Assembly (NCBI RefSeq): GCF_015645385.1
Contig: NZ_JADOET010000002.1
Coordinates: 248,001 to 312,000 of the forward strand
Length of the DNA: 64,000 bases
From: Winogradskyella marina
GTDB taxonomy: Bacteria; Bacteroidota; Bacteroidia; Flavobacteriales; Flavobacteriaceae
Direction of reading: 5' to 3'
Shown here: piece by piece, positions 12,801 through 46,057 of the stretch
Numbering within the stretch: the first letter of the stretch is position 1
How the letters are laid out: every line of letters starts with the position of its first letter
Notes under the pieces: generated by a model
What the model was told of the DNA's origin: nothing
Database searches by the model: none
The model's input: the letters and a program-made list of their open reading frames with translations, nothing else
Program-made: the position numbers and the translations under genes

Positions 12801-13042
12801 TCTGCAGTTGTGATAGATTCTCCAGGTTGTAAAACAGGTAATTGAAATGGAATAATATAGGCTTGTGCATTATTATGGCCTAACCTTGCGGTTGTTTGAC
12901 CAACCCATCCCCAAGAGGTGTTATCGTTTTTAATGGTAATATCGTCTGAATGCGCTGGAATAATTTGAGAATTTTGTGCCTCTGCAGATATAATTCCTAT
13001 TAATATCATTATAAATGCATATTGAAATTTTATGATGTTCAT
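6866..13042 (-). CDS. Giant secreted multidomain protein: two beta-helix domains, CBM96-like ends, F5/8C, T9SS tail
   Basis: 2058 residues. In order: signal peptide (1-23); DUF7594/CBM96-like module (about 24-205); Ig/cadherin-like (210-300); right-handed parallel beta-helix 1 (308-726); two Ig-like (737-824, 833-920); beta-helix 2 (931-1350); Ig-like (1355-1450); discoidin F5/8C (1453-1577); two Ig-like (1585-1675, 1683-1773); second CBM96-like module (1778-1960); T9SS type A sorting tail (about 1981-2058, starting VYPNPINEGKVTI). Each helix opens with YYCDPINGxxxN and GDxIYLxSGxHG, as in chondroitinase-B/PL6-like proteins, and closes with AIDAGV, GxPRSxG and GAxE. Both carry an HDDG(F/I)Q motif (H519 and H1142). 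It is probably a cell-surface lyase or hydrolase with substrate-binding modules. The reaction is not determined. It is the first gene of the unit running down to GH94. Confidence 0.82.
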   Translation of the reverse strand: MNIIKFQYAFIMILIGIISAEAQNSQIIPAHSDDITIKNDNTSWGWVGQTTARLGHNNAQAYIIPFQLPVLQPGESITTADLAVQVISYSNQPSNTNIDLYGLPFRTTSTVDLNTDYFVGVLDTSATLIQDNIFEDNVTGLVNLDSNTQQNLVSYLNAQYSAGAVGGDFVFIRFSADANSSETWNLASQDNGTTSNRPILDIAISNTSNTTPTLTFIGNQNVQEQSTLNVNISASDMDGDALSITSSTLPSFATLIDNGDGTAVMSLNPQLGDASTYSVTITVSDGIEMVTETISIVVSTYQTPVAGVYYCDPINGNINNDGSQANPWSTLAAVVYTNKPLNSGDIIYLMSGDHGDPYINSMSFNDYVTVKALSGNAPIIKSIQLVNSSYWAFDGIKIDGTNNTKTKEQVLFSSDVNSHHTKIINSTISSAENIETWTKTDWYNNVTSGIQIRSDYAFLENNVIKNTYHALEVRGEFTEVHNNLIDNFAGDAIRGLGSNSTYENNTVRDCYINDYAIQHDDGFQAYNLQSDPKISNVTLRNNVFMLFADPVTPFVQSNNLIGDLMQGIIITDGYADGWIVENNIVSNNQDHGISLYGARNCKVQNNTVVQSPLYSDADHVPWIMLTDQTKTGQTNFNNVIRNNISAKYTTWTYDTTSTVEHNITIDGSNYANYSNYFVDYVTNDFHLSATSPAIDAGVDTDLAVTDLEGNPRSMGTNVDAGAYEYTGTVNPPANNAPILASIGGKTMNELETLEVSISATDLDNDTLTFSITNAPNFTTFVDNGDGTASLTLSPQIGDANSYNITVSVTDGTDSNEEIILVTINPEGTTPLNNAPIIANVTNQTVEEDNILNVNISVTDSDNDTLTITSTSLPNFATFTDHGDGTALFEFTPSEGDAGTYNIDVQASDTIDTTTLNFVVSVSEITNVTGTAYYCDPINGSMSNPGTLASPWKSLQDVFTAQKTFNSGDVIYLLSGAHGSPYMTGTHSDYVTIKPLSGEHPVLASVQVENGSYWAFDGLTFSTDGSGGNFVRDYMFLTKDDATYLKIENCTFSSANDSSTWSKNDWYANSEDAVIIRGDNIIFNNNTIKNVYFALQIEGDYAEIRNNLIDNFGADAIRALGSHAIYENNIIRDAYIEDYNINHDDGIQMYDKDNVAAGIIDDVVIRNNKIFNFADPITQAMVDDNLIGYSMQGIIITDGHTENVIVENNLVVSDHYHGITLTGAINCKIQNNTVSKTPTSYNPVTDAIPWIQIKNDKQGNGSTGNIIRNNIAAKYTPWTYDETTNTVEYNIVVSAIDAINTYEDFNNWDFNLKAGSSAIDAGVNTSLTTLDINGDPRSVGAAVDCGAFELQASADITSPVIVSANNTFFNDEFVIVFSESVTNISSELPGNYTLSGGATISSASLSADNKTVTLTCSALNGNTSYTITANNVEDYAGNTASNSSATFIYECDTNWASTYQDDQWGYNPPSNAFDGDNQTKWAAEGNQWIQKSFCEIVTVQSVDISFGLGDERAYSFVIEVSTDGRNFTQVHSDTSTGTTTAAEHFDFVDVSAKYFRIVGSGSDVNGWNNYSEIVINTSGYTPPTNTAPVLVPIGNQTITEGDTLNIIVSATDTDGDTLSFTANNLPSFVTFMDNNDNTATLTIAPAIGDASTNSISISVNDGTTIDTETLNIVVNNDSTTANNAPVLSTLVSQTLNVDEVKIINISATDADADALTFAINNAPSYATFVDNGDRTATITLSPISGDEGTSNITVTVYDGELNDSAILNIQVNALPQQNNYIVEAVMDDQTVYENGGMQWVGYHTHRIGSNNKTSAIIPFQIPTLAQDERLTSATLNFHLLQNGGNLAHKVDLYGLPYRSSSTILSTDFYAGVYDTDLTATAIEDDILDLNSPQGNLQSSSSQNIVNYINNQLDNGAVTGDFIFFRFSLDYNGSGNYNYWDIASQDHTTSSYRPVLNFDTALTLGKAYNNNTKEILEIENSTVSVYPNPINEGKVTISSRMLNQKSTLEIYSLTGRLVFKQHVQPTQSNTMHADIQLNSGVYILKLRNTSKIFTQKLIVN

Positions 13043-13062
13043 AATAAACTATTTTTAGTTAG

Positions 13063-13074
13063 ACAATCGATTGT
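13063..13074. promoter_or_regulatory. Perfect 12-bp palindrome upstream of the giant beta-helix gene
   Basis: ACAATCGATTGT is a perfect palindrome with a central CG, lying 20 bases upstream of the start at 13042. Palindromes with a central CG are typical of LacI-family operators. No regulator gene is in the window, so the role is inferred. Confidence 0.4.
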
Positions 13075-13321
13075 ATTATTGTGAAAATGTTTTTAAAAAT
13101 TTGATAACACTTTGCTTGAGGCTACACTAAATTATCAATAGTAATATTTCTTAATCCCTTTTGTATTTTATGCCAATACTTCACTTAATTATAAGGTTAG
13201 ATAAGTTTAATTAAGTCAATTTGTTTGCTCCATTTACTTTTTAATCCTTAAACGGTTATTTGAGAAGTTCCTATTTTAGAACATGGAAGTACTAGATTAC
13301 TTAAATAATAATTATTAAATA

Positions 13322-13354
13322 GAAAACGAGGGCATATATTAATCCCTCGTTTTC
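13322..13354 (-). terminator. Intrinsic terminator after the tandem CBM96-like gene
   Basis: A perfect 11-bp stem (GAAAACGAGGG with CCCTCGTTTTC) around an 11-base loop lies 16 bases past the stop of the gene ending at 13370. On the minus strand the right arm ends in a T-rich run. It separates the deacetylase/CBM unit from the giant beta-helix unit. The rest of the 327-base gap (13043-13369) holds the palindrome at 13063 and no gene. Confidence 0.8.
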
Positions 13355-13369
13355 AAAAATTGCTATTAA

Positions 13370-15010
13370 TTACTGAATGATTAATTTTTGTGTTTTAGAA
13401 CGCGTTCCATCTTGAAGTTTAACGATATACACACCTGATTTTAAATTTAATGTTGTGTTAAAAGAGTTTGCTGAATTTGCTTCAACTTTTTCAGAGTGGA
13501 CTAACTGACCTGTTATTGAGAAAATAGTCAATTTGGAATCATTACTAAATCCGTTTGATGTAATTGTTAACTTACCATCAGTTACAGGGTTTGGATATAA
13601 TTTTAAAGTTGATTTTTCTACACTATCTACAGATAATTCACCATCTATAGAAATTGATAACGTTGGCGCATTGGCAGTTGAACCATCGTCAACTCCAAAA
13701 TAATGAGCACCAGTAGTTGCTGGGTCATCTACATTTAATCTTAAAAACACATAATCACCTTCAACTGCACCAGCATCATATTGCGCATTTAAATAGTCTA
13801 CTAAAGCATTATCTCCATTAGCATTTGTTTCTTCAAAACGTGCAGTATCTAAAGATCCAGCATCTACATTTTTTGAAAAGTAATCATCCTGAATTGCTGT
13901 AACATCAGCTGTAGCATCTGGATACGCGCCATCATAATGGTCTGCAGGATAAATAGTGCTAGCCGCATTATAAGGAAGTCCATATAAATCGACATTAGAA
14001 GAGATCCATTCGCGACCATAATTGACATGTACTTTTAAATTCGCAGAAACTACCAACTGACCTGATGGACGCGCAGGTAATTTAAATGGAATAATACCAC
14101 TTGTTGTAACTGGGCTTCCGTCTGCAGCACTTGCTCCTATTTTTAACGAATTTATTCCGCCTACATTATTTCCATTCAAATAAGGATTGTTAGCAGGCAA
14201 AGCAGTTATATCAGAAACAATACCATCAACGTGGAAAGCTTGATCTAATACCATCTCTGGCACTAAGTCATAATCTGTTGTTGGACTTGCCTCAGCATCT
14301 TCCACTTCTATAGTTAATGTTGGTGCGTTTGCAGTTGAACCATCATCAACTCCAAAATAATGAGCTCCAGTAGTCGCTGGGTCATCTACATTTAGTCTTA
14401 AAAACACATAATCGCCTGCAACAGCTCCAGCATCATATTGTGCATTTAAGTAGTCTACTAAAGCGGTATCTCCACCAGAATTTGTCTCTTCAAAACGTGC
14501 TGTATCTAAAGATCCAGGATCAACATTTTTTGAAAAGTAATCATCTTGAATTCCTGTAACATCAGGTGTAGCATCCGGGTAGGCATCATCAAAATGGTCT
14601 GCAGGATAAATAGTACTAGCCGCATTATAAGGAAGTCCATATAAATCGACATTGGAAGATATCCATTCGCGACCATAATTGACATGTACTTTTAAATTCG
14701 CATTAACTACTAATTTTCCTTCTGGGCGTACAGGCAGTTTAAAAGGTATGATGGCACTTGTTGTATTTGGGCTTCCGTCTGCAGCACTTGCTCCTATTTT
14801 TAACGAATTTATTCCGCCTACATTATTTCCATTTAAATAAGGGTTATTTGCAGGCATAGCAGTTATATCAGAAACAATACCATCGACATGATAGGATTGA
14901 TCTGTAACAATTTCTGGTGTAACATCATAAGATGTTGTTTGGGCTTGTAATGCAAATGGTGTCACACCTAATGCAATTCCCAATAAAGAATTTAGTAGCG
15001 TTGTTTTCAT
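13370..15010 (-). CDS. Secreted tandem DUF7594/CBM96-like binding protein with T9SS tail
   Basis: 546 residues: a signal peptide (1-24, ending ALQAQ), two nearly identical CBM96-like modules (about 25-240 and 244-458) and a T9SS sorting tail (about 468-546, LKLYPNPVTDGKLTI and later LKSGVYIVKLQDG). No catalytic domain is present. Each module has the pattern HVDGIVSDITA, IIPFKLP, NVDLYGLPYNAASTI, YLNAQYDAGAV and GDYVFLRLNVDDP. Similar modules end the other secreted proteins of this locus. It is probably a surface protein that holds the polysaccharide near the cell; binding is inferred from the family. It follows the deacetylase by 33 bases and ends at a strong terminator. Confidence 0.8.
   Translation of the reverse strand: MKTTLLNSLLGIALGVTPFALQAQTTSYDVTPEIVTDQSYHVDGIVSDITAMPANNPYLNGNNVGGINSLKIGASAADGSPNTTSAIIPFKLPVRPEGKLVVNANLKVHVNYGREWISSNVDLYGLPYNAASTIYPADHFDDAYPDATPDVTGIQDDYFSKNVDPGSLDTARFEETNSGGDTALVDYLNAQYDAGAVAGDYVFLRLNVDDPATTGAHYFGVDDGSTANAPTLTIEVEDAEASPTTDYDLVPEMVLDQAFHVDGIVSDITALPANNPYLNGNNVGGINSLKIGASAADGSPVTTSGIIPFKLPARPSGQLVVSANLKVHVNYGREWISSNVDLYGLPYNAASTIYPADHYDGAYPDATADVTAIQDDYFSKNVDAGSLDTARFEETNANGDNALVDYLNAQYDAGAVEGDYVFLRLNVDDPATTGAHYFGVDDGSTANAPTLSISIDGELSVDSVEKSTLKLYPNPVTDGKLTITSNGFSNDSKLTIFSITGQLVHSEKVEANSANSFNTTLNLKSGVYIVKLQDGTRSKTQKLIIQ
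13625..14938 (-). repeat. Two 657-bp direct repeats inside the CBM96-like gene
   Basis: The two module-coding segments are near-identical at the DNA level. For example CGCGACCATAATTGACATGT begins at 14011 and again at 14668, a period of 657 bp (219 codons). The approximate units are 13625-14281 and 14282-14938. The high DNA similarity indicates a recent duplication or ongoing gene conversion. Confidence 0.85.
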
Positions 15011-15043: not shown

Positions 15044-17368
15044 TTATTGTACGATTAGTTTTTGTGTTTTTAAGGTTATCCCATCCGATATCTTAAGAAG
15101 ATATAGCCCAGCATTTAAATTCAAATTTGTTTCAAAATTTGAACTTGAATTGGTTGTAATCATTTCACTATGAACTAAACTACCTGTTAGAGAATAGATA
15201 TTTAGTTTCGTGTTTTCTGATTTAAATCCTTTTAATACGATGGTTAATTTGCCTTCTGTTACTGGATTTGGATAAAGACTTACATTTGATTGATCGAAAG
15301 CATCAACGCTTAAAACATTTTCAATTTCTAACGTTAAAGTTGGTGCTTCTTCTGTAGATTCGTCACTTATACCGTAATAATGGGCACTTGTAGAACCTGT
15401 TGTAGCATCTACACTTAACCTTAAAAAAATGTAATCTCCTGCAACGGCACCTGCATCATATTGTGCATTTATGTATGCTGCTAGGTTAGTGTCACCTTCT
15501 GAATCCGTATCTACTTGTCGGTCTGTTAAAATCAAAGTGCCTACAGGTTCATTACCATCTACATCTCTAACAACAAATCCATCTTGTAGTCCTGTTGCTG
15601 TACCTTGAACGTTAGCAAAAGCGCCATCATAAAAATCATTTGGAGATATAGCGTTTGAGGCATTATATGGTAATCCGTATAAATCGATATCAGAAGAAAT
15701 CCAGTGTCTTATATAGGCAATGTTCACATTTAAATTTGCAGCCGTCACTAATTTACCTGGTGGACGTACTGGTAATTGAAAAGGAATAATTGCATTAGTT
15801 GTAAATCCACCACCAGTTGATGCACTAGCTCCAACTTTTAAGACTTTGGTGCCATCGATATCATTACCATTTAACCAAGGATTTGTACTACCCTCTTCTA
15901 AATTAAGAACATCAGATATGATACCATCTCCTGTAGGAGTAATTATATATTCTGTCGTTGGTTCTCCACCAGAATCAGGACTAACCGTTAAGTTAAAAGA
16001 CTGTGATGTGATACTTCTTCCATTATCTGCAATAACTGTAATATTTTGATAATCGCCAGCATTTAAAAGTGAAGGTGAAAATACAATGTTTCCTGTATTG
16101 TCTCCATTGTCAGTTAAGACTCCAAAATTAGGCAGGTTAGATGTTGTAAAAGAAATGGCATCATTACCAATAGTAGCTGCTGAAAAATCTATTTGTAACG
16201 TAGTTTCTTCAACCATAGATTGATTTGCTAAGGATGGAGAAATTATTGCTGGGTCAGAATCTGCAACACCTGCTATTGTAACTTGACCTGCGTCTGGTAC
16301 AGTTTTTACTAGCGTATATTTTTTACCATTATGTGTTATTATTTCAGAATCTACAGGCTCTCCATTCTGAATGGCGGTAACACTTACCCAACTATTGTCA
16401 ATTCTTATTTTAACGGTTAGGGGAAAATAGAAAGCGGAGTCTAACATGTCATCTGTTAGTGTGTATTTTATTTCACTTTCTGAAACATTATCTATGGTTA
16501 AATTATGCGTTGCAAAGGATTGAGAGTATTGAGTGACCTCTGTGAATCCGGCTACCCACAATTCTGGTTTGTCTGCTAAGTATTGTAAAAATTCGTTAGT
16601 GGTAGTTTCACCCGCTTCATCTAAGCCGTGAAAATGTGTACTTCCCCAACCACGATAGTAATTGGTGCCATATAATGTATTGACATTGTCTAATAGTGGT
16701 AAAATATATTGATCCCTGTCCGTATCATTACCATAAATATGAACATTGGAAACGCTATTAACATCTAAATAATTGACGGTGTTGGATTGATTTAGAATTC
16801 CTTGGGTGCCTCTAATTCCTATAAATTGTGTTCTAGCAATGGTTTCGTTACCTTCACCATAAGGATAGGCATAGGTTAAACATTTATTAGATCCAGAGGT
16901 TACTTCTGTGTCAATAGTTGTAACTGTGGCTTGCAATCTTGCGAGATAATCCGCATCAGAAAGGTTGGTTTCACCTTCTGCTGGGTTAGTATACCAATTT
17001 CTATCATCGTGCCCATCTATTTGACTACCTAAAGCCGCAAGATTATTATAAAGGCTCCAATCCTGAACATTATATGCCGGATCTGCCTCAGTAATTACAA
17101 ACCACGAAAAATGGAAACCATATTCAGCAATCATCGATGTCCAAAAAGGGATATCCTGTTCGTTATTATCATCAATGGTTATTGTGAATGCGGCTAATTT
17201 GTCATCATTCCATAAGCAGACATCTCCTTCTCCTACGACTTCTGGCCAAACTTTATCTGTTACTGTAAACCTTGTTCCGACAGCCGGATCAAGATTAAAA
17301 GTGTTTTGTCCAATCGATTGTATGAAAATCATTAAGAAGACGAAAAGGGTAGTACTTTTTTTAAACAT
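15044..17368 (-). CDS. Secreted NodB-like polysaccharide deacetylase with CBM96-like module and T9SS tail
   Basis: 774 residues from the ATG at 17368. The frame is open further up to 17458, but 17368 gives a clear signal peptide (MFKKSTTLFVFLMIFIQSIG) and lies downstream of the predicted -7 box at 17444. A NodB-like domain follows: FTITIDDNN (motif 1, D67-D68), GSQIDGHDDRN (motif 2, H120) and YAYPYGEG (motif 3). The usual second His of motif 2 (HxxxH) is not apparent, so metal binding may differ. Then come a linker with an Ig-like domain, a CBM96-like module and a T9SS tail starting LYPNPVTEGKLTI. CE4 enzymes remove N- or O-acetyl groups from glycans, so a role in stripping acetyl groups outside the cell is inferred. 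It is the first gene of its unit. Confidence 0.8.
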   Translation of the reverse strand: MFKKSTTLFVFLMIFIQSIGQNTFNLDPAVGTRFTVTDKVWPEVVGEGDVCLWNDDKLAAFTITIDDNNEQDIPFWTSMIAEYGFHFSWFVITEADPAYNVQDWSLYNNLAALGSQIDGHDDRNWYTNPAEGETNLSDADYLARLQATVTTIDTEVTSGSNKCLTYAYPYGEGNETIARTQFIGIRGTQGILNQSNTVNYLDVNSVSNVHIYGNDTDRDQYILPLLDNVNTLYGTNYYRGWGSTHFHGLDEAGETTTNEFLQYLADKPELWVAGFTEVTQYSQSFATHNLTIDNVSESEIKYTLTDDMLDSAFYFPLTVKIRIDNSWVSVTAIQNGEPVDSEIITHNGKKYTLVKTVPDAGQVTIAGVADSDPAIISPSLANQSMVEETTLQIDFSAATIGNDAISFTTSNLPNFGVLTDNGDNTGNIVFSPSLLNAGDYQNITVIADNGRSITSQSFNLTVSPDSGGEPTTEYIITPTGDGIISDVLNLEEGSTNPWLNGNDIDGTKVLKVGASASTGGGFTTNAIIPFQLPVRPPGKLVTAANLNVNIAYIRHWISSDIDLYGLPYNASNAISPNDFYDGAFANVQGTATGLQDGFVVRDVDGNEPVGTLILTDRQVDTDSEGDTNLAAYINAQYDAGAVAGDYIFLRLSVDATTGSTSAHYYGISDESTEEAPTLTLEIENVLSVDAFDQSNVSLYPNPVTEGKLTIVLKGFKSENTKLNIYSLTGSLVHSEMITTNSSSNFETNLNLNAGLYLLKISDGITLKTQKLIVQ

Positions 17369-17443
17369 TTGATTTTTATTGGGATTTGTTATTTGTTTCT
17401 GTATTTGATACAGATAAGGCTGAAAAATAGAAAGCGCTATTCT

Positions 17444-17540
17444 CAAATATAAATACAAATAGCTGACTAATCCTAGTGTTTTCAGTGCTTAGCTCAATAA
17501 AACAGACAAAACTAACAAACAATTAAACAGATAGTATAAA
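17444..17540 (-). promoter_or_regulatory. Promoter and conserved upstream region of the deacetylase operon
   Basis: On the minus strand the -7 box TATATTTG (17444-17451) fits the flavobacterial consensus TAnnTTTG and would start RNA about 70 bases before the ATG at 17368. There is no TTG at the usual -33 distance. The segment 17457-17540 aligns without gaps to 25838-25921 upstream of rhaEW (57 of 84 bases identical by hand count), including CAGATAGTATAAA, AGACAAA, ACTAA and AAATAGC. A weak -33 plus conserved upstream boxes suggests activator control. The rest of the gap (17541-17687) shows nothing clear. Confidence 0.65.
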
Positions 17541-17687
17541 CTTCAATTGCGCTTTTTGAGAATAATGGGTAAAATTAAGGTGATTATTGTGAGAAATTTA
17601 AATTTTATGAATTCAGTTATCAATTTAATAACTTTAAAGTGTGATTAACTGTAATTTGTTAAAAACTGATGGTGTAAAATAATCCAA

Positions 17688-19811
17688 TTACCAAACGAAG
17701 AAAATTTGCTTTTTTGTTTCACCTTCAGTAGTATATTCTAATAAATATTTCCCAGTAGGTAGTTTTGAATTTTCACTTCGAAAAACATGATCTGATAAGT
17801 CAGAAGGATTTATAGTCTGTTCAAAAACCTGCTCACCTGAAAAATTCAGTAATTTAAGTTGTACAGTTTTACCTTGTTTAAAACCTAAGAAGTACACGTT
17901 AAATTCTCCATTATGCATAGAGTTTGGTGCAATAATAATATTGTTTTTAATAGATTCTATGTTACTAATATTACCTTCATTAAGTTCAGGATATCCAACA
18001 GTAATTTCAAGCGTTGGTTGGTTTTCTTTTTTCTTACCATTGGCACTTACAAAGTTCCATCTATTATAATCTGAAACATCTTTAGAGTTTGGGTTCATTC
18101 TTAAAAAGATATAATTCGCAGAGTTTGTTTCTGTTTCAAAAATGGTGTTCAAGTAATCTTTGAGTCCTTTTTGTCCAATGTTATTTGTTTTAATGTCTCC
18201 GGAATACATATTAGGGTCTACAAAATTATTCTGAATGGGTCTTGCCGAAACATCTTGTCCAAAAGTTCCTTGATAATAAAGGTCTTCAGTGACCCAAAAG
18301 TTCGATTTTGGAGGCAACGCATATAAATCAATGCCTCCTTCGGGTTGATTATCTACTTTAGATAAATACACTTTAAAATTAGCAGATAGAATTTTTTTGC
18401 CTCCAGGGATTTCTGGAAGCTTAAATGGAAAGACTCCAGCACCGTCAATATTTTCGCCAACACCTCCAATACGAATTTGTGGTTGACCATCCCAGTCTCC
18501 TTTACCTTTGGAGTGAATCTGTCTATCTGAAGCTTCCGAAGGTATTTCAAAAACCTGATTAGCCTCGTCAATTTTAGTATATTCAAAGGCTCCAATATTA
18601 ACAAAGTTACCTAAGGACCGTTTGTTTTGACTTGCGTCTAAATTTGGTGCCATATCCGATGTTCCACTGTTCAGAGCTTTTGAGTTAGGGCCTAAAGAGA
18701 AATCAAACAGAGCCCAATTATTAAAGCATTTGTCATAATCATGTACGGAGACAGGAAGCGTTAGATTATAATCTGCAATCCCTTTTATGTTCTTAAATAG
18801 GACATCATTAGACAGGTTATTTCTTATAAACAGATTTGAAGAATCATTTTCGCCAATGATCTGTATGGCAAGTGGTGCATTTGTTTCGCTTTTATCGGTG
18901 AAATTTAAACCAAAATAGGGATTTACAACTGTATTATTAACAATTTTTAGATTGTTCAATTGACCAGTAAGAGATATCCCTTTTTTACCATTTGTAATAA
19001 CAATATTGTTTTCAAAAATACTCTCAGAAATAATGGTTTTCAACCCGTAAATACCATTTAATACTCCTATTTGCGCTCTATTTGATTTGGTGAAATTGAT
19101 AATTGTATTACCTCTAAAAATGTTACCTTTTGTTTCTTTCTCGGTAAAATATATACCAGAATTTACTTCAGCATCTGTGGCTATACTTTCTTTAATTAAG
19201 TTGTATTCTAATAAATTAGAATCTGCTAAAATAGTAATGGCATTATGGCTAAAAAAATTGATACGATTATTCCTGATTTGAGTTTTTTCACCAGAAACTA
19301 TAATACCGTTTTTGTAATGAGAAATGACATTACTTTCTATTTTACATTGCGTTCCTTTGACATCGATTGCAGTATCATCCTTAGTATTTGAAATAAAATT
19401 ATTTTCCGTTAATCTGATTTTAGAACTATTTTGATGTATAAAAACAGTATTTGAATTGAAGGCTCCATTAAAAGTAATATTACTGAATATCCACTTGGAT
19501 GCAGGCGATTCTTCAGTTCCAAATATTATAGAGTTTATCGTAGGATTTTGGTCTGTAAGTCCAGAAATAGTAATGTATTTTTCGTTTTGGCCTATAACTT
19601 TGACGTTTCCATGATTTCCGGAAAGTAAGAATATCACATCACCTGCTTTAAATTCTATTCCTTTTTCAAAAACACTTTCTAAGCTTCCCCATGGATTAGC
19701 TTTACTTCCGTCGTTATTTGTATTCCCGTTTATTGGGTCACAATAGAAATCAGTTGCGTAGATCGCTTGTGCGAATAAGAAAAAGAGAAAGAAGTAGCCG
19801 TAAGTTTTCAT
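17688..19811 (-). CDS. Secreted beta-helix protein with CBM96-like module and divergent T9SS tail
   Basis: 707 residues: a signal peptide (1-19), a right-handed beta-helix starting FYCDPINGNTNNDGSKANPW (about 22-410), a CBM96-like module (about 420-620, GAGVFPFKLPEIPGGKKI and later NYIFLRMNPN) and a C-terminal domain resembling a T9SS tail (about 630-707), with APNSMHNGEFNV replacing the usual YPNP start. It is a paralogue of the helix domains of the 2058-residue protein, but the HDDG(F/I)Q motif is absent; the matching place reads EVNSGIYF. It may therefore bind without cutting, or use another active site. It is the last gene of the rhamnose operon, 12 bases after lldD, which ties surface attack to sugar catabolism. 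Confidence 0.78.
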   Translation of the reverse strand: MKTYGYFFLFFLFAQAIYATDFYCDPINGNTNNDGSKANPWGSLESVFEKGIEFKAGDVIFLLSGNHGNVKVIGQNEKYITISGLTDQNPTINSIIFGTEESPASKWIFSNITFNGAFNSNTVFIHQNSSKIRLTENNFISNTKDDTAIDVKGTQCKIESNVISHYKNGIIVSGEKTQIRNNRINFFSHNAITILADSNLLEYNLIKESIATDAEVNSGIYFTEKETKGNIFRGNTIINFTKSNRAQIGVLNGIYGLKTIISESIFENNIVITNGKKGISLTGQLNNLKIVNNTVVNPYFGLNFTDKSETNAPLAIQIIGENDSSNLFIRNNLSNDVLFKNIKGIADYNLTLPVSVHDYDKCFNNWALFDFSLGPNSKALNSGTSDMAPNLDASQNKRSLGNFVNIGAFEYTKIDEANQVFEIPSEASDRQIHSKGKGDWDGQPQIRIGGVGENIDGAGVFPFKLPEIPGGKKILSANFKVYLSKVDNQPEGGIDLYALPPKSNFWVTEDLYYQGTFGQDVSARPIQNNFVDPNMYSGDIKTNNIGQKGLKDYLNTIFETETNSANYIFLRMNPNSKDVSDYNRWNFVSANGKKKENQPTLEITVGYPELNEGNISNIESIKNNIIIAPNSMHNGEFNVYFLGFKQGKTVQLKLLNFSGEQVFEQTINPSDLSDHVFRSENSKLPTGKYLLEYTTEGETKKQIFFVW

Positions 19812-19823
19812 AGTAATTAAACG

Positions 19824-20975
19824 TTATTGGTTGATTAAAAAATTCGGAAAATCTTCTGTTTTTTCACAGTTCAATTGTTCCATGACTTGTTGTAATTCCG
19901 TTTTTAATAAAGATATAGTATGGTCTCCTCCCTTTTTTCCTAATGCCGAAACACCATACATAAATGAACGTCCTAAAAACGTAAATTTGGCTCCCGATGC
20001 TAAAGACCTAGCCACATCTGGACCAGAACGAAGTCCACTGTCCATCATAACCTCAATCTTATCTCCATATTTTTGAGCAATGGTTTTTAGCGGTTTTATA
20101 GTGGATTGTCCTGCGTCTAATTGGCGTCCACCATGATTGGAGACTATAATGCCATCTAAGCCTAAGCGTATGGCCTCTTCAGTGTCATGCTCAGAGGCGA
20201 CACCTTTTAAAACGAGTTTTCCTTTCCACATATCTCTAATAGGCTTGATTTTTTCTTCATTTAATCGTCCACTAAAGGTTTGATCCATAAACTTGCCAAG
20301 TTGCCTTAAATCTAAGCCTTTTGGCATGTAAGGTTTTAACGTTTCAAAATTGGGTTGTCCATATTTTAAAGTTTCTAATGCCCAATGCGGTTTACCTAAA
20401 ATTTGCAAAATATTTTTAACAGACATTTTCGGTGGCATAGCTAAGCCATTTCTGATATCACGAGGTCTAAAACCAAAGGTTGGAACATCACATAAAATAA
20501 CAAGCACTGGGCAATGTGCAGCTTCCGCGCGTTTAATAATATCATCTCGCAATCGATCTTCTGTTGGGTGATACAATTGAAACCATGCTTTGCCTTCCGT
20601 AAGTTCACTTGCACGCTCAATACTTGTTGTGGTAACTGTACTGAGAATAAACGGGATGTTGTGGTTAAATGCCGCTTTTGCTAATATTTCAGGGGAATTT
20701 GGCCACATTAAGCCTTGAAGGCCAACAGGTGCAATGCCGAAAGGAGCGCTATATTCTATTCCAAAGAGATTTGTTTTTAAAGACGCGCCAGAATGATTTT
20801 TTAAATAATTAGGTTTTAATTGTACGTCTCTAAGCTCAGCGGTATTCCGATGTAAGTTAACATCTTCATTGCAGCCACCATCTAAATACTCAAAAGCAAA
20901 TTTTGGTATTTTTTTTTGCGCCCTTGATCTTAAATCAGTAACCGACGGATATTTTGTGTTTATCTTCAAAGTCAT
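19824..20975 (-). CDS. lldD: FMN-dependent alpha-hydroxy-acid dehydrogenase (L-lactate dehydrogenase type)
   Basis: 383 residues, the usual length of the family. It begins with a YPSVTDLRSRAQKKIPKFAFEYL-type N-terminus (first 20 residues of the domain near 9-30) and has the TIM-barrel signature SNHGGRQLDAG (near 280-290) with the catalytic His and Arg, followed by MDSGLRSGPDVARSLASGA. These enzymes oxidise L-2-hydroxy acids such as L-lactate to the keto acid with FMN. The aldolase/dehydrogenase encoded three genes upstream is expected to yield L-lactate, so this enzyme would deliver pyruvate to central metabolism. It follows the kinase by 6 bases. Glycolate or another hydroxy acid is possible but the context favours L-lactate. 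Confidence 0.85.
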   Translation of the reverse strand: MTLKINTKYPSVTDLRSRAQKKIPKFAFEYLDGGCNEDVNLHRNTAELRDVQLKPNYLKNHSGASLKTNLFGIEYSAPFGIAPVGLQGLMWPNSPEILAKAAFNHNIPFILSTVTTTSIERASELTEGKAWFQLYHPTEDRLRDDIIKRAEAAHCPVLVILCDVPTFGFRPRDIRNGLAMPPKMSVKNILQILGKPHWALETLKYGQPNFETLKPYMPKGLDLRQLGKFMDQTFSGRLNEEKIKPIRDMWKGKLVLKGVASEHDTEEAIRLGLDGIIVSNHGGRQLDAGQSTIKPLKTIAQKYGDKIEVMMDSGLRSGPDVARSLASGAKFTFLGRSFMYGVSALGKKGGDHTISLLKTELQQVMEQLNCEKTEDFPNFLINQ

Positions 20976-20981
20976 TAGGTT

Positions 20982-22361
20982 TTACTTTAGAATAAAGGGT
21001 ATATGTTTTTTCAAGCCATAATTCTTTTTTAAAAAATTAGAAGCCAATTTTCCATCCATAATTACTATAGCAGCTCCTAACGCCGAACCTAATGAAGAAC
21101 TGGTCGACCTCACTTTCAGGTTACGTAAACGATGAGTCAATAATTTTATAAAGACGTCATTATCGCTAAACCCTCCATCAATATACAATCGTTTTATTGA
21201 ACTGTTAGTGCCTAATGTGGTTTTTATACTTTGTAGTTGTACATCAATAAGCTCTATCATTAATTGATGATAAGCGTCTTGATAATTGTTAAGTTTGAGG
21301 TTCGTTTTCTCTGGTGTTTCTGTGTTGGCCAAATATTTCCACCTAAAACATGGACTGAAATTGTATGATAATCTGTTGAAAATTTGACTATTAAATGTTA
21401 CTGATTTGTGTCGGTCTAATGGCACGTCAAAATATTGACTTAATTGTGTAATTTGATGTATGTATTCTTTTCCTAGTAATAATTTTGCCGATTTCACAGG
21501 CTTGCCATTAACTTTCATGTAATTAATGGTGTCATTTTGAAGATCTTCGTTAGTTAAGGATACGTCGGAATACGGATTTAGTGACACACTCCAAGTGCCT
21601 GTTGAAACCAACACAAAAGGTTTTTTAGAACCCTTTAAATAGGGTATGAGTGCTGAAGAACTATCATGAATACCTACTCCAATTTTTATGCGTTTTCCAT
21701 TATAATATTTAGAAATACATGTTTCTGTTGAAACAATCGGAGGAAGTATTTGGTCAATGTCTTCGTTATAAACCCAACTGTGATAATCTTTTTTACCATA
21801 ATCCCAAAGTGATGTGTGGCAACCTATACTGGTAAATTCACTAAGCGGAACACCTGTAAACATATAACTAAGATATTGTGGCAGGTGCAAGGAATACGAA
21901 ATGTTTTTGAATACGTCTGGTTGCTTATATTTTAACCAATATAACTGCATTCCAGAATTTAGCATACCAGATTGCGGTGATCCCGTTTCAGTAGAAATAT
22001 CTCCATGCGTGTTATTAAACTGTTCTAAAATATCTGATGGAATAGGCTTTAAATAATTATAAAGCGGTGTTAGTAGATCTCCGTTTTTATCTAAATGAAC
22101 AAGACTTGCTCCATATGTAGAAAAATTAACAGCTGTAATAGTGTAGGTGTTGGAATCTAAAATATTTTTAAATACTAATTGTATCCATTTTTGAAGCGCA
22201 TGAATATCTTCCGTTGGAAACCCATCTTCATCAACAATTTCTTCTAAGGTCGTGTACTCTTTATAGACTTCGTTATAGTTAGTATCGAATAGGAAAAACT
22301 TTTTATTAGTCTTTCCTATATCGAATATTGCTATAACCTCTTGTTTTATTGGAGTACTCAT
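20982..22361 (-). CDS. FGGY-family sugar kinase, probable L-rhamnulokinase
   Basis: 459 residues with the N-terminal FGGY motif VIAIFDIGKTNKKFFLF (about 9-25), the ATPase-fold element VGIHDSSSALIPYL, the phosphate-binding stretch VSTGTWS and a C-terminal YIDGGFSDND. These mark the FGGY kinase family. Between the isomerase (7 bases upstream) and lldD, the likely reaction is L-rhamnulose plus ATP to L-rhamnulose 1-phosphate, the step before the aldolase. Sequence alone does not separate rhamnulokinase from L-fuculokinase; the isomerase next door decides for rhamnose. Confidence 0.8.
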   Translation of the reverse strand: MSTPIKQEVIAIFDIGKTNKKFFLFDTNYNEVYKEYTTLEEIVDEDGFPTEDIHALQKWIQLVFKNILDSNTYTITAVNFSTYGASLVHLDKNGDLLTPLYNYLKPIPSDILEQFNNTHGDISTETGSPQSGMLNSGMQLYWLKYKQPDVFKNISYSLHLPQYLSYMFTGVPLSEFTSIGCHTSLWDYGKKDYHSWVYNEDIDQILPPIVSTETCISKYYNGKRIKIGVGIHDSSSALIPYLKGSKKPFVLVSTGTWSVSLNPYSDVSLTNEDLQNDTINYMKVNGKPVKSAKLLLGKEYIHQITQLSQYFDVPLDRHKSVTFNSQIFNRLSYNFSPCFRWKYLANTETPEKTNLKLNNYQDAYHQLMIELIDVQLQSIKTTLGTNSSIKRLYIDGGFSDNDVFIKLLTHRLRNLKVRSTSSSLGSALGAAIVIMDGKLASNFLKKNYGLKKHIPFILK

Positions 22362-22368
22362 AGTGTTT

Positions 22369-23640
22369 TTACAAACCTGTTGCTTTAGAATTCATTCCCC
22401 TTTCTTTAATCAATACATTTCTAACATCAAGCGACCTATATGCTGAAATAGGATCGATGGCTCCGTCATTTCTTAATCGGGCTTCGGCTAAAATTGTTTT
22501 TACATCCGTGTTAAAAGCGTCTTGTAAAATGCGTTGTGCCGTTACTACATCATTTTTCAATTGTGCTTCTTCAAGTGCTTTTTGGTCAATTAATAAAGCT
22601 TTTGCATAAGCTGTTTCAATGGCTTCAATAGACTGAATTAAATCCTCTAAAGGATCTTTTAAATTATGACTTGCATCAATCATCCACGCAGGAATTGGGT
22701 TATTTGCAGGATTGTTTTCCATTCCAAAAACCAATTCATTGAATATTAGAAATAATTGATAGGGTTTCATGACGCCAACACTTAAATCATCATCGCCATA
22801 TTTACTATCATTAAAATGAAAACCACCTAACATGCCTCTTGTCATTAATGTGGCAACAATATGCTCAATATTTGTGTTTGGTAAATGATGTCCTAAGTCC
22901 ACTAAAGTATAGGCTTGTTCACCTAAATCTTTAGCCAACATATGAGACGTTCCCCAGTCTTGAATCACCATAGAATAGAAATTTGGCTCGTAAGGCTTGT
23001 ATTCTATAAACAGTTTCCAATCTGCTGGTAAATGGGCATAAATTTCTTTTAAACTTGCTAAGGTATTTTCAAAAGCACGTCTAAAATTGAGCTGACCAGG
23101 AAAATTAGATCCATCTGCCAACCATACCGTCAAAGATTTTGACCCTAAGGCAATTCCATAATCTATAACGGCTTTATTGTGTGCCACAGCTTGATCTCTC
23201 ACGTTTTTGTCTGTATGACATAAAGATCCAAACTTATAACTATATTCTTGGTTGTCTTGATCTTGAAACGTGTTGGAATTCATGGCGTCAAAATGAAGCC
23301 CTAAATGTGTTGCTTTTTCTTTAATGGCATTAGTATTTTTAGGAATATCCCAAGGAATATGTAAAGACACTGCATTTGCAGATTTGGTTAAAGCATTAAT
23401 AACACTAATGTCTTCAAGTTTTTGTTCTAAAGTACTGGGTTCTCCGCCAAATCCGAATTTTCCAAATCGTGTGCCTCCAGCTCCTAATGCCCAACTTGGT
23501 ATGGCAATATTATAGTTTGAAATGGTATCTATAATATCTTCTAAGTTGCTATGTTTTCTAGATAATTGGGTTAGCTTTTCCTTATGTTCAACTAATAAAT
23601 CTTTATTTAAGGCTACTATTTCTTCTTGATGTATTTGCAT
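22369..23640 (-). CDS. rhaI: L-rhamnose isomerase, RhaI type
   Basis: 423 residues. The stretch IAIPSWALGAGGTRFGKF (about 46-63) and the metal-site region LVDLGHHLPNTNIEHIVA with GGFHFNDSKYGDDDLSVG fit the RhaI (Pseudomonas stutzeri type) TIM-barrel rhamnose isomerases rather than the E. coli RhaA type. The enzyme converts L-rhamnose to L-rhamnulose and needs divalent metal. It sits between rhaEW (21 bases upstream) and the kinase, as expected for a pathway operon. No L-rhamnose mutarotase gene is seen nearby. Confidence 0.88.
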   Translation of the reverse strand: MQIHQEEIVALNKDLLVEHKEKLTQLSRKHSNLEDIIDTISNYNIAIPSWALGAGGTRFGKFGFGGEPSTLEQKLEDISVINALTKSANAVSLHIPWDIPKNTNAIKEKATHLGLHFDAMNSNTFQDQDNQEYSYKFGSLCHTDKNVRDQAVAHNKAVIDYGIALGSKSLTVWLADGSNFPGQLNFRRAFENTLASLKEIYAHLPADWKLFIEYKPYEPNFYSMVIQDWGTSHMLAKDLGEQAYTLVDLGHHLPNTNIEHIVATLMTRGMLGGFHFNDSKYGDDDLSVGVMKPYQLFLIFNELVFGMENNPANNPIPAWMIDASHNLKDPLEDLIQSIEAIETAYAKALLIDQKALEEAQLKNDVVTAQRILQDAFNTDVKTILAEARLRNDGAIDPISAYRSLDVRNVLIKERGMNSKATGL

Positions 23641-23661
23641 AGTTATAGTTTCAAAGATTGA

Positions 23662-25761
23662 TTATCGTACAAAGGCATTTGCCATGCCTCCGTCAACATT
23701 AATAATGTTTCCTGTGCTTTTATCTAAAATAGCAACTAAAGAAAATACGCCATTTGCAATATCAGCAGGATAAATTATTTCGTTTAACAAATTTCTTTTG
23801 GCATAATGTGCAGGCAATTCTTCAACTGTAATGCCATAGGCTTCAGCGCGTCCTTTTGCCCATTCGCCTTCCCATATTTTACTACCCACAATAACACCAT
23901 CTGGGTTCACAACATTCACCCTTATTTTATCGGTTCCTAATTCAGCAGCTAATAATCTAGACATGTGTTGTTGTGCCGCTTTTGCTGTACCATAACCTAC
24001 ATTGTTAGGCCCTGAAACGAGACCGTTTTTGCTCGCTATATTTACAATATCGCCACCTAATTTTTGTTTTTTGAAAATTGTAACGGCTTGTTTTGCTAAT
24101 TCAAATTGACCTTTAACCAATACATTTTGCAGAATATCCCAATCTTTATCCGTGGTTTCTTCTAATGGTTTTGAAATCGCTAAACCAGCACTGTGCACTA
24201 CGATATCTACACCACCAAAGGCTAAACAAGCCTGCTTATAGGTGTTGGCGATAGATTTGCTGTCTGTGACATCTCCTTGAACATAAATTGCGGTATCGTT
24301 TTTATAGGTTGTGATGGCTTCTTTTAGTCGGTCTTCTGATAAATCTGTAAGTACAACATTGGCACCTTCTGCTGCTAACCTATCGGCAATAGCTTTACCA
24401 ATACCTCCACCAGCACCTGTAATTAAGGCTACTTTTCTAGACAATGATTGCTCTTTTGGCATGCGTTGTAGTTTAGCTTCTTCCAATAACCAATATTCAA
24501 TATCAAAGGCTTCTTGTCTAGGCAATGATGTGTATTCTGAAATGGCTTCAGCACCACGCATTACGTTAATGGCGTTTATATAAAATTCACTTGCGACACG
24601 AGCTGTTTGTTTATTTTTTGCAAAACTGAACATGCCAATGCCTGGATACAAAATAATGACTGGGTTTGCATCTCGTATTGCAGGACTTGTGTCGTTTTTA
24701 CAAGTCTCGTAATAAGCTTCATATTCCTTCCTGTAGTTATCAAATGCCGGCTCTAATTTTTCAAAAATGAGTTCGGTGTTATTTACATCTTCAGAAGGAC
24801 TTAAATTGAGTACTAATGGTTGAATTTTGGTTCTTAAGAAGTGGTCTGGACACGATGTGCCCATTGGAGCCAAACGCTGTAGGTCTTTACTATTTATAAA
24901 ATCTAAAACTTTGTCGTCATCTGTGAAATGGCCAATCATTCTGTTTTCTGAGGCACATAAGCCTCTCAGTATTGGTGCCAATACAGCTGCTTTTTCTAGG
25001 CGTTCTTCTTTGGGAAGACTTTCAACTGTTTGGCCGCCAAAAACCTCTCCATTTTCAGAAATTTTGTTTTCGATATAAGCAGATGCCATCTCTATGACTT
25101 CTAAACTGTTGATATAGCATTCGTATGAGGTATCTCCCCAAGTGAATAAACCATGGGAACCTAAAACAATACCTCGAATGCCTGGGTTGTCTGCTAAACA
25201 TTTTTCGAGCATTAAACCCAATTCAAAACCTGGTTTTTTCCAAGGCACCCAACCCATGGTGTCTCCCCAAATTTCTTTGGTTACTTTTTCACTGTCTTTT
25301 GCAGCAGCTACGGCAATTAAAGCATCAGGATGTAAATGATCAATATGTTTAAAGGGTAACAATCCATGAAGCGGAGTGTCAATTGATGGTGCTTTGCTAT
25401 CCAAATCAAAAATACAGTGATTGAAAAGCGCCACCATTTCGTCTTCATAGGCAACACCTCTGTATACTTTTTTTAAATCTCTTAAGCGATCGGTGTACAA
25501 GCCTGCGATTCCGCTTCTTGTCAGAGTGCCAATATCTCCTCCAGATCCTTTTACCCACATAACTTCAACATCTTTATTTGTTAAAGGGTCTTTCTCAATA
25601 GTTTTGCAGCTTGTATTTCCTCCTCCGTAATTGGTAATTCTTAGATCACGACCTAAGATGTTAGAGCGATATAAGAATAGTGCGACTTCATCATTTTTTA
25701 TCTTTTCTACTTTAGTGTCGTCCCATAGATAATCTACATAACGGTAATTTTTTATTGACAT
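23662..25761 (-). CDS. rhaEW: Bifunctional L-rhamnulose-1-phosphate aldolase / L-lactaldehyde dehydrogenase
   Basis: 699 residues in two parts. Residues 1 to about 400 are a class II aldolase, with RITNYGGGNTS (41-51) and the metal-binding HIDHLHPD (139-146) and GSHGLF (201-206). Residues about 440-699 are a short-chain dehydrogenase with TGAGGGIG (448-455) and YxxxK as YGTAK (590-594). The fused family splits L-rhamnulose 1-phosphate into dihydroxyacetone phosphate and L-lactaldehyde and oxidises the latter to L-lactate. It is the first gene of the operon rhaEW-rhaI-kinase-lldD-beta-helix. A -7 box lies 66 bases upstream. Confidence 0.88.
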   Translation of the reverse strand: MSIKNYRYVDYLWDDTKVEKIKNDEVALFLYRSNILGRDLRITNYGGGNTSCKTIEKDPLTNKDVEVMWVKGSGGDIGTLTRSGIAGLYTDRLRDLKKVYRGVAYEDEMVALFNHCIFDLDSKAPSIDTPLHGLLPFKHIDHLHPDALIAVAAAKDSEKVTKEIWGDTMGWVPWKKPGFELGLMLEKCLADNPGIRGIVLGSHGLFTWGDTSYECYINSLEVIEMASAYIENKISENGEVFGGQTVESLPKEERLEKAAVLAPILRGLCASENRMIGHFTDDDKVLDFINSKDLQRLAPMGTSCPDHFLRTKIQPLVLNLSPSEDVNNTELIFEKLEPAFDNYRKEYEAYYETCKNDTSPAIRDANPVIILYPGIGMFSFAKNKQTARVASEFYINAINVMRGAEAISEYTSLPRQEAFDIEYWLLEEAKLQRMPKEQSLSRKVALITGAGGGIGKAIADRLAAEGANVVLTDLSEDRLKEAITTYKNDTAIYVQGDVTDSKSIANTYKQACLAFGGVDIVVHSAGLAISKPLEETTDKDWDILQNVLVKGQFELAKQAVTIFKKQKLGGDIVNIASKNGLVSGPNNVGYGTAKAAQQHMSRLLAAELGTDKIRVNVVNPDGVIVGSKIWEGEWAKGRAEAYGITVEELPAHYAKRNLLNEIIYPADIANGVFSLVAILDKSTGNIINVDGGMANAFVR

Positions 25762-25826
25762 GTTAGTGGGTTTTATATGTTAAAAAAGTGTCGATTTATA
25801 CGTGTATAATAAACTTCGACTCCTCT

Positions 25827-25921
25827 CAAAAATACATAAATAGCCCACTAAACCTAAGGTAAACAGACGCTGTCATATCATAAAAGACAAATAAAACAAG
25901 TAATTAATCAGATTGTATAAA
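25827..25921 (-). promoter_or_regulatory. Promoter and conserved upstream region of the rhamnose operon
   Basis: On the minus strand TATTTTTG (25827-25834) is a perfect TAnnTTTG -7 box, 66 bases upstream of the rhaEW start. No TTG is found at -33. The segment 25838-25921 matches 17457-17540 without gaps, with CAGATTGTATAAA, AGACAAA, ACTAA and AAATAGC at the same spacing. CAGA-like words recur about 20-25 bases apart in both copies, as expected for binding of an AraC-type or hybrid two-component regulator. The regulator itself is not in the window. The rest of the gap to 26057 holds nothing recognised. Confidence 0.68.
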
Positions 25922-27795: not shown

Positions 27796-28941
27796 ATGGC
27801 AAGTATAAAAACTATAAATAAGTTATTTCTAGTAGGTAATGGTTTTGATAGAGCATTAGGTTTAAAAACTACATATGAAGATTTTTTATTTTGGTATTTC
27901 ACAAACTTTATCGTTAAAGCTTTAGAAGTTCAAAATACTATAATAAATGATTCTGGCAATCATGAATATTATTATAACACCGATTTACTAATCACTTATT
28001 CTCACAGTGTAAAATCAATCGATAATAATAATCTTATTGAGAATTTTAAAAAGAACAATATCACTTATGAAAAAATAAGAAAGTTTATAAATAATAGCTC
28101 AAGCCAGTATAAATTGACAATTAAATCTGATTTACTTAAAGCAGTTTTAGAAGAATCCATAAAGGGTTGGGTTGACATAGAAGGAGTTTATTTTAAATTA
28201 TTAAAAAAGGCGTTTAAAAGTAAAGACAAAGTATCGATAGATAGTCTTAATAAAGATATAGTTTGCTTAACTAAATTATTAAAAGACTATTTAAGTCAAT
28301 TAGATATATCTAAAACAACAGAGAAAACTGTAAGTCAGAAATATATTGACCAATTTATAAGTCCAATTGTTCCTGGTGATGTTATTTATCCAATAAAAGA
28401 ACACACAATTAAATCAAATAGATATTATTTTTTAAATTTTAATTATACCAAAACACTTTCAAATATTCTTTTAACCTTACCAGATGATTACTTTAAAAAA
28501 TATGGTCATGAGATAGACGCTTTCATATCTCACATTCATGGCGATATAGATAGAGAAGAAATTGTATTCGGTTATGGTGATGAAATGGATAAAGATTACA
28601 AAGGCATTGAAGAATTAAATGATAATCGTTTTTTTGAAAATATAAAATCGTTTAAGTATAATAAAGCATACGAGTACCGTGACCTTTTAAGGTTTTTAAA
28701 TACTGAAGAATATCAAGTTATTATTTATGGTCACTCATGTGGTTTGTCAGATAGATTATTACTTAACGAGGTTTTTGAGCATGACAACTGTAAATCAATA
28801 AAAATATATTATTATAATGAAGCAGAGTTTACCACTAAAACTATGGATATCTCTAGACATTTTAATAGCAATCAAGTAATGCGGCAAAAAATTGTTGAGT
28901 TTGATGAAGAAAATAGAATACCGCAAACAATGATATCATAA
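27796..28941 (+). CDS. abiH: AbiH-family abortive infection protein
   Basis: 381 residues. The N-terminus KLFLVGNGFDRALGLKTTYE (about 10-29) and DFL after it are the signature of the AbiH family (bacteriophage abortive infection). Further family-like elements are YYFLNFNYTKTL (about 210), SHIHGD, VFGYGDE (about 258) and IIYGHSCGLSDRLLL near the C-terminus. AbiH was described as a phage abortive-infection protein in Lactococcus; its mechanism is unclear. It starts 3 bases after the remnant of a restriction gene, which fits a decayed defence island. No partner gene is seen downstream. Confidence 0.82.
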   Translation: MASIKTINKLFLVGNGFDRALGLKTTYEDFLFWYFTNFIVKALEVQNTIINDSGNHEYYYNTDLLITYSHSVKSIDNNNLIENFKKNNITYEKIRKFINNSSSQYKLTIKSDLLKAVLEESIKGWVDIEGVYFKLLKKAFKSKDKVSIDSLNKDIVCLTKLLKDYLSQLDISKTTEKTVSQKYIDQFISPIVPGDVIYPIKEHTIKSNRYYFLNFNYTKTLSNILLTLPDDYFKKYGHEIDAFISHIHGDIDREEIVFGYGDEMDKDYKGIEELNDNRFFENIKSFKYNKAYEYRDLLRFLNTEEYQVIIYGHSCGLSDRLLLNEVFEHDNCKSIKIYYYNEAEFTTKTMDISRHFNSNQVMRQKIVEFDEENRIPQTMIS

Positions 28942-36301: not shown

Positions 36302-36811
36302 ATGACTTTAAAATCACTTTGTTTAGGAGTGTTTATTGCGGTTCTCGCTCCATTCGTTTCTAATGCACAAGACCAAACAAAACTCGGCGGATACTTAGCT
36401 TATGGTACTGAGATAGAGAATATTGGTATAGGTGTCAATGCAGAATTTCCTATTGCCGACCAATTAACTATAGCACCAAGCTTTACCTATTTTTTACCTA
36501 AAGATGAATTTGGAGTAAAAGTTAATTGGTTTGAACTAAACGGAAATGTCAATTATTACTTTGTAGACTCATCAAACATTAGTGTTTATGGTCTAGGCGG
36601 ACTTAACTACTCAAGTGTTAAGGTGTCTTACGATGACGCTGTTGGATTTGGTGGTGATTTTTCGGCTTCTGATGGTCGCTTTGGGCTTAATTTAGGAGGA
36701 GGTGCTAACTTCGAAATTGGTAGTAATATCTTGCCATTTGCAGAGCTAAAGTATGTTATAATTGATGGCGGTCAACTAGTTATTGCTGCTGGTGTAAAAT
36801 TTAATATTTAA
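36302..36811 (+). CDS. Small outer-membrane beta-barrel protein
   Basis: 169 residues with a signal peptide (1-22, ending VSNAQ). The rest alternates polar and hydrophobic residues in the style of an eight-strand barrel (YGTEIENIGIGVNAEFPIA, PSFTYFLP, FELNGNVNYYF, VYGLGGLNYSS, GLNLGGGANFEI, LPFAELKYVI, LVIAAGVKFNI) and ends in an aromatic-containing strand, as needed for insertion by the Bam complex. It is a close paralogue of the protein encoded at 42108-42635. A lipoprotein gene follows 13 bases later. No specific function is known. Confidence 0.8.
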   Translation: MTLKSLCLGVFIAVLAPFVSNAQDQTKLGGYLAYGTEIENIGIGVNAEFPIADQLTIAPSFTYFLPKDEFGVKVNWFELNGNVNYYFVDSSNISVYGLGGLNYSSVKVSYDDAVGFGGDFSASDGRFGLNLGGGANFEIGSNILPFAELKYVIIDGGQLVIAAGVKFNI

Positions 36812-44282: not shown

Positions 44283-44287
44283 TACGA

Positions 44288-45760: not shown

Positions 45761-46057
45761 AACCAACTATTTAAATGAGATTTACCTATTGCTAAATACG
45801 TGATTTTTTATTGTTTCTTTTATTCTTTCCTAAAGAAGCGTTAATTTTAAAGATAATTTGGCTAAATTGAGAATTAGGCACTTTCAATTTAACTATAAAA
45901 ACATAAGCTATTAAATGTTCTGCCTTTATTTATAAGAGATAAAACGAAGTATCAATTATTTCTTTATGCGTCCTAAACCTAAAACCATTTAATTTCCGAA
46001 TTAATTTTGAACCTTTCCTCTTTTCTACATCTTGTTGAGCGTAAACAGTTAGAACTT

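Follow-up and report, generated by a model that had tools for sequence, protein, structure and literature searches.

A probable AraC-type regulon of three operator-promoter modules in a rhamnose-linked polysaccharide utilization locus of Winogradskyella marina

Introduction

In the genome of Winogradskyella marina, an operon for secreted enzymes and an operon for rhamnose catabolism are preceded by upstream regions that closely resemble each other. Does one regulator govern both, and if so, which regulator, and through what sequence? We addressed this question in the window (the whole stretch of 64,000 nucleotides that was analysed, C22:248001-312000 in contig coordinates), along its contig C22 and across related genomes, computing the motif, its target promoters, its spacing, its specificity and its co-occurrence with a candidate regulator. 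Our data indicate, with good though not complete confidence, that three operator-promoter modules, their cores most likely bound by an AraC-family protein, form the regulon of one polysaccharide utilization locus (PUL), with a probable rhamnose-linked inducer.

Matching upstream regions in the window

The regions at 17457-17540 and 25838-25921 are identical at 57 of 84 ungapped positions, which reproduces the count of the first-pass annotation, and the shared blocks that it listed (CAGATwGTATAAA, AGACAAA, ACTAA and AAATAGC) are present. When 1000 pairs were simulated from a first-order Markov model with the same dinucleotides, no ungapped 84-base match within 320 bases exceeded 49. When the upstream regions in the window were compared in 941 non-overlapping pairs, the observed pair ranked second: the first (63/84) comes from within two outer-membrane paralogues, with most of its mismatches at third bases, and the third reaches 50/84.

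Flavobacterial sigma-A promoters carry a TTG at -33. Each of the two regions is followed, just beyond the 84-bp block, by a match to the flavobacterial -7 box: TATATTTG at 17444-17451 (- strand) for the secreted-enzyme operon and TATTTTTG at 25827-25834 (- strand) for rhaEW, offset from each other by 2 bases (core position 90 versus 88). The TAnnTTTG consensus, with the box at -12 to -5, follows PMC9723704. The distances from box to start codon are 75 bases (start 17368) and 65 bases (start 25761). The boxes reported earlier are real, but they stand outside the 84-bp blocks. No TTG with a 15-26 base spacer occurs upstream of either box in the window, in agreement with the -33 element having been described as missing.

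Operator motif and its genomic distribution

Comparison across genomes narrowed the shared sequence to a conserved 43-bp core, TTTATACnATCTGnTTAATnnnTTGTTnnnTTTGnCTTTT. In the window, the core lies at 25879-25921 (- strand) upstream of rhaEW and at 17498-17540 (- strand) upstream of the secreted-enzyme operon; both are training sites of the 43-position weight matrix (PWM) and score 56.4 bits each. A third site precedes susC at C22:243641-243745, 4.3 kb left of the window. This susC site of W. marina (G000) was left out of the 13 training sites of the PWM, which nevertheless recovered it at 243703 with 32.2 bits, while 20 shuffles all stayed below 8. Over C22:208001-312000 the PWM found nothing above 14 bits apart from these three sites and, since they are the only ones, the divergent spacer between araC and the desaturase gene discussed below seems to be no target.

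A longer model of 106 positions (R1), built on 13 sites including the susC site of W. marina, matched the window at 25819-25921 (78.2 bits) and 17436-17540 (71.3 bits). The genome-wide search that the first-pass annotation had proposed yielded strong R1 sites in seven genomes, exactly three in each (E 5.5e-23 to 1.9e-11; 150 candidates scored per genome, so that weak sites may escape). These are the genomes of four Winogradskyella (G000, G007, G029 and G061), Tamlana haliotis (G357), Flavicella sediminum (G069) and Polaribacter marinus (G462). The next match had an E of 0.004. Eight of the 21 strong sites were absent from the training set; for the untrained susC sites in Tamlana and Polaribacter, no susC site of the genus had entered training. 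Motif occurrences before many unrelated genes, the outcome that would have spoken against a dedicated operator, did not appear.

Strong R1 sites were absent from 17 genomes that lack an orthologue of the candidate regulator, with 150 candidates scored per genome (best E 0.009 in G463, G008, G056, G054, G013, G019, G001 and G014; best E 0.0096 in G464-G472). The 64 genomes of the genus without an orthologue are represented in these searches by seven scanned with R1 and by G065, scanned with a 35-base pattern alone. Allowing up to 3 mismatches, this pattern occurred in 3 of 397 genomes of the family sample (twice in W. marina, three times in Flavicella and twice in Tamlana); it was also found twice each in G007, G029 and G061, with zero occurrences in G008 and G056.

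The targets of the R1 sites are susC, the deacetylase-like gene and rhaEW, although in G007 and G061 we infer susC as the target from equal spacing. To the two operons named by the first-pass annotation, the susC operon adds a third target. In Flavicella the third site precedes a beta-helix gene; rhaEW begins there at the very end of contig C11, and its promoter falls outside the assembly.

Promoter geometry

The arrangement of core and box is rigid. In all 12 sites compared, a TAnnTTTG box of the kind found in flavobacterial sigma-A promoters is present and begins at core position 88-90. Eleven of the sites have no TTG separated from the box by 15-26 bases; the Polaribacter deacetylase-like site has one with a spacer of 15. 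If the box is taken as -12 to -5, the core extends from about -100 to -57. The distal 43 bases hold most of the invariant columns, and a weaker conserved block (tagg-tTagt) occupies the position of a would-be -33 element. Because the distance from core to box is fixed and the -33 TTG is mostly absent, these promoters look activator-dependent.

The internal structure of the core is less distinct. The first-pass annotation had suggested half-sites about 20-25 bases apart, and among lags of 8-29 the self-similarity of the core peaks at 21; the permutation p was 0.054 for that lag alone, rising to 0.16 when lags 20-22 are allowed and to 0.75 when any lag is. A spacing of 21 bp has a prior, given that the motifs of AraC-type hybrid two-component systems (HTCS) are tandem sites averaging 21 bp apart (PMC3878776); with a test this weak, a half-site repeat of 21 bp is only suggestive. 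The best palindrome in the core was no better than in permuted columns (p 0.67), which gives a palindromic operator no support.

The locus and its target operons

Each of the three modules is about 100 bp long and stands in front of one of three neighbouring predicted operons, 18 genes in all, that belong to one PUL; operon limits were deduced from strand and short gaps. The rhaEW operon comprises five genes on the - strand: rhaEW itself (23662-25761), a bifunctional rhamnulose-1-phosphate aldolase/dehydrogenase above the cut-offs of NCBIfam NF006191 and TIGR02632; an L-rhamnose isomerase-like rhaI (22369-23640; TIGR02629, E 3.7e-154, under its cut-off); rhaK (20982-22361), an FGGY sugar kinase that is probably a rhamnulokinase (FGGY domains and a weak TIGR02627 match); an FMN-dependent, L-lactate dehydrogenase-like protein (19824-20975; PF01070, with NF008398 under cut-off); and, as the predicted final gene, a beta-helix protein (17688-19811; PF13229), the gene that has its own site in Flavicella.

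The predicted secreted-enzyme operon, also on the - strand, begins with a secreted deacetylase-like protein with a T9SS tail (15044-17368). Its PF18962 match is above cut-off; the deacetylase label given earlier has a PF01522 match behind it, which at 20.2 bits falls under the cut-off of 23.1. There follow a T9SS-secreted, DNRLRE-like protein (13370-15010) and a 2058-aa secreted protein with beta-helix, Ig-like and F5/8C domains and a T9SS tail (6866-13042); the 327-bp gap before the latter (13043-13369) may hold an extra promoter. Further along are an alpha/beta hydrolase (5812-6846; PF07859), a polysaccharide lyase 14-like protein (4953-5804; PF21294), a carbohydrate esterase-like (SASA) protein (3431-4930; PF03629), an alpha-L-rhamnosidase-like protein of the 6-hairpin type (1002-3380; PF17389, PF08531 and PF17390) and the start of a 768-aa gene without annotation (1-982 in the window; C22:246676-248982 in full). 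Left of the window the predicted operon extends to an MFS_2 symporter and a GH47-like protein.

The susC/D/E-like genes lie left of the window at C22:236955-243547, the SusE-like label resting on position. Beyond them the locus contains a desaturase-Rieske-reductase fusion, creatininase-like and aldo/keto reductase genes, araC, and genes for DUF4861, KduD-like dehydrogenase, KduI and LacI proteins, together with genes that, from inspection of their sequences, we take to be TRAP-like. The order from araC to rhaEW is kept in Tamlana haliotis and Polaribacter marinus, the latter having only a partial homologue of the 2058-aa protein. Flavicella sediminum keeps the order from araC to the beta-helix gene, minus the symporter and the 768-aa gene.

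The fusion, creatininase-like and aldo/keto reductase genes (C22:232764-236799) are divergent from araC and are kept in the locus in other genera and in the Flavobacteriaceae metagenome-assembled genome (MAG) BB35 (G463). They might serve the oxidation or demethylation of an unusual sugar.

A linked AraC-family candidate

The likeliest activator of the three modules is the predicted product of araC (C22:231684-232550, 15.5 kb left of the window), a single 288-aa protein that combines an AraC_binding ligand domain with an AraC-type helix-turn-helix (PF12833, PF00165 and PF02311, all over cut-offs). Its matches to the NCBIfam RhaR and RhaS equivalogs (E. coli types) are far under cut-off. The first-pass annotation had advised looking for an AraC-type or hybrid two-component regulator just outside the window; the candidate is AraC-type and so placed, but it is a one-component protein and not a hybrid. 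It is the sole PF12833 match within 188 kb left of the sites and rightward to the contig end, the other matches on C22 being at 55 kb or below. The LytTR and histidine-kinase genes at window 43560-48064 were set aside as candidates, being more than 17 kb from the nearer site.

This candidate is favoured because its orthologue tracks the motif. In each of the seven motif genomes, araC sits inside the locus. Within the genus, an orthologue (E 1e-20 or better) occurs in 4 of 68 genomes, the four that have sites; in the family sample, at least 80% identity was reached in 3 of 397 genomes, the three with the 35-base pattern, and the next best matches were paralogues at 36% (6 candidates were scored per genome in this search, so that homologues may escape). 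The Polaribacter orthologue is 85% identical.

Particularly informative are eight genomes free of both orthologue and strong sites that still have rhaEW at 79-90% identity. These are five Winogradskyella (79-81%), two Aureibaculum (82%) and BB35, which has a deacetylase-like protein at 69% and rhaEW at 90%; as BB35 is a MAG, absence from it weighs less. Co-occurrence is partly linkage, since regulator and sites are inherited together in one locus. Motif specificity, box spacing and an orthologue that follows the motif together support the claim, made at first pass, of a single regulator for the glycan-attack and rhamnose operons.

Two other kinds of protein could bind the operator, and we consider each of them improbable. 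One is the LacI-family protein of the locus (C22:227547-228566), acting as a repressor while AraC controls something else. Every one of the seven motif genomes does have a LacI orthologue, usually inside the locus: identity is 94-100% among the four Winogradskyella, the copies near araC reach 68% for Tamlana and 65% for Polaribacter, and the Flavicella copy (60%) lies on another contig. Two Aureibaculum genomes in which no strong site was found, however, also have orthologues, at 71%. The core moreover shows no outstanding palindrome, whereas LacI-family rhamnose operators are described in PMC3870299 as 20-bp palindromes, and the missing -33 TTG suggests an activator and not a LacI repressor.

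The second, to which we give about the same small chance, is a regulator of the AraC or hybrid two-component type whose gene is not linked to the locus. W. marina has 23 PF12833 matches, some in frames of 950-1380 aa, and the operators of AraC-type HTCS consist of tandem sites about 21 bp apart (PMC3878776); against this, the linked AraC orthologue follows the motif, in a comparison that, of the AraC-type regulators, profiled the linked one. It is very improbable that the likeness is due to chance, to AT-rich composition or to a recently duplicated promoter with no regulator in common, for although intergenic DNA is AT-rich and the -7 box general, simulated pairs stopped at 49 against 57, and the same columns are conserved across four genera as flanks diverge, with three sites per genome.

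A putative second control of rhaEW

Relatives that lack the AraC orthologue appear to place the same genes under another control. A GTACAGTACAGGATA-like box precedes rhaEW in five Winogradskyella and two Aureibaculum genomes of this kind; the loci with such a box are L015-L019, L102, L193 and L194. According to Pfam, a GntR-type gene is divergent from rhaEW in one of the Winogradskyella (G008) and in one Aureibaculum, and a similar frame was seen by eye in G013. In BB35 neither box, nor a perfect TAnnTTTG, was found within 300 bases before rhaEW. By inference, the GTACAGTACAGGATA-like box and GntR offer a second way to control the same genes: orthologous rhaEW would be the controlled gene in both cases, and the difference would lie in the box and, where checked, in the divergent GntR-type gene. 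In G220 (locus L102) an AraC paralogue adjoins rhaEW, yet the rhaEW box is GTACAGTACAGGATA, a case that does not help the AraC reading.

Putative inducer and AraC paralogues

The inducer is likely to be L-rhamnose, or a product that contains rhamnose, inside the cell. The soluble AraC-like ligand domain leads us to expect an intracellular ligand, and L-rhamnose is the simplest choice, given that RhaEW, RhaI-like and RhaK-like enzymes are encoded by one target operon; an oligosaccharide or uronate product could also be the ligand.

The surroundings of AraC paralogues give a hint in the same direction. After a length filter, rha genes lie beside the paralogue in 2 of 17 neighbourhoods (0 of 17 in control AraC neighbourhoods), and in a third (L095) rha is represented by a 40-residue match at a contig end. 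GH78-like matches near six paralogues are short, and after the length filter 2 of 17 neighbourhoods keep one, partly at other loci. These counts are suggestive only of a rhamnose-specific AraC subfamily.

In L095 (2355-2450) and L107 (about 1380-1500), distant AraC paralogues are divergent from rhaEW or rhaI, and by eye TCAAAAAGTATAAA is common to the spacers. TCAAAAAGTATAAA resembles the GTATAAA end of the operator and is perhaps a half-site retained in the AraC subfamily.

Proposed mechanism and relation to known systems

In the mechanism that we infer, which comprises binding, activation, half-sites, operon limits and inducer, the 288-aa AraC-family activator would bind the 43-bp core, probably as a dimer that contacts tandem half-sites at a spacing of 21 bp, and help sigma-A polymerase to a TAnnTTTG box at fixed distance without a -33 TTG. 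The first module would drive the susC-susD-susE-like operon, the second the secreted and periplasmic enzymes with the symporter, and the third the rhaEW-rhaI-rhaK-lldD-like operon. Intracellular L-rhamnose or a rhamnose-containing product could then close a feed-forward loop from import to catabolism.

A broader interpretation, to which we give slightly less than even weight, is that one cytosolic AraC sensor runs the whole PUL, from outer-membrane import and T9SS surface enzymes to inner-membrane uptake and monosaccharide catabolism, by way of exactly three rigidly arranged promoters and with no linked HTCS, SusR or ECF sensor. On this tentative account rhaEW joined its control when the locus was assembled, and the rhaEW of sister species, keeping another box beside a GntR-type gene, would represent a regulator swap within one genus.

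Regulons of this general kind have precedents. CgrA (ZGAL_3159) of Zobellia galactanivorans belongs to the AraC family and regulates the carrageenan regulon; without it, growth on carrageenan is impaired (PMC5698469). Like our candidate, it is encoded in a flavobacterial PUL, with a regulon of PUL enzymes, susCD-like pairs and sugar catabolism; it differs in its distal susCD-like pairs and in its substrate, and the excerpts of PMC5698469 mention no operator for it. RhaR (BT3768) of Bacteroides thetaiotaomicron is, according to PMC3878776, PMC3870299 and PMC11669328, an AraC-family activator of the rhamnose operon, to which our putative activator corresponds in family and in its link with rhamnose catabolic genes. 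The reconstructed regulon of RhaR (PMC3878776 and PMC11669328) is a single operon with no susCD or secreted enzymes.

Bacteroides HTCS regulons (PMC3878776) resemble the one proposed here in placing SusCD and enzymes of several operons under one regulator; their operators have two sites about 21 bp apart, the spacing that is only suggestive in our core. These HTCS are sensor-kinase hybrids with a periplasmic sensor (PMC3878776), whereas our candidate, 288 aa long and with an AraC_binding domain, has neither a periplasmic sensor nor a kinase domain, and no other PF12833 match lies near the sites. In our searches on Winogradskyella rhamnose, PULs and AraC and on flavobacterial RhaR regulons, no title or opening of an abstract described this regulon. 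We regard a PUL regulon of a one-component AraC-type protein as well supported by clean comparative evidence, and as an already known kind of system. For this glycan locus of marine bacteria, the analysis yields an operator short enough to be tested, a specific gene as candidate regulator and three operons as targets. Sister species, in which other regulatory boxes precede the same rhamnose enzymes, offer a natural comparison.

Other features of the window

At the right border of the locus lies an AbiH-type phage-defence gene (27796-28941; PF14253). Two paralogous outer-membrane genes stand in opposite orientation at 36302-36811 (+ strand) and 42108-42635 (- strand) and contain an inverted repeat (36398-36562/42363-42527) of 75% identity. 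An 85-nt direct repeat, 91% identical, is found at the end of a DUF2130 gene and ahead of a 116-aa frame (30408-30492/30724-30808), apparently the result of a partial tandem duplication.
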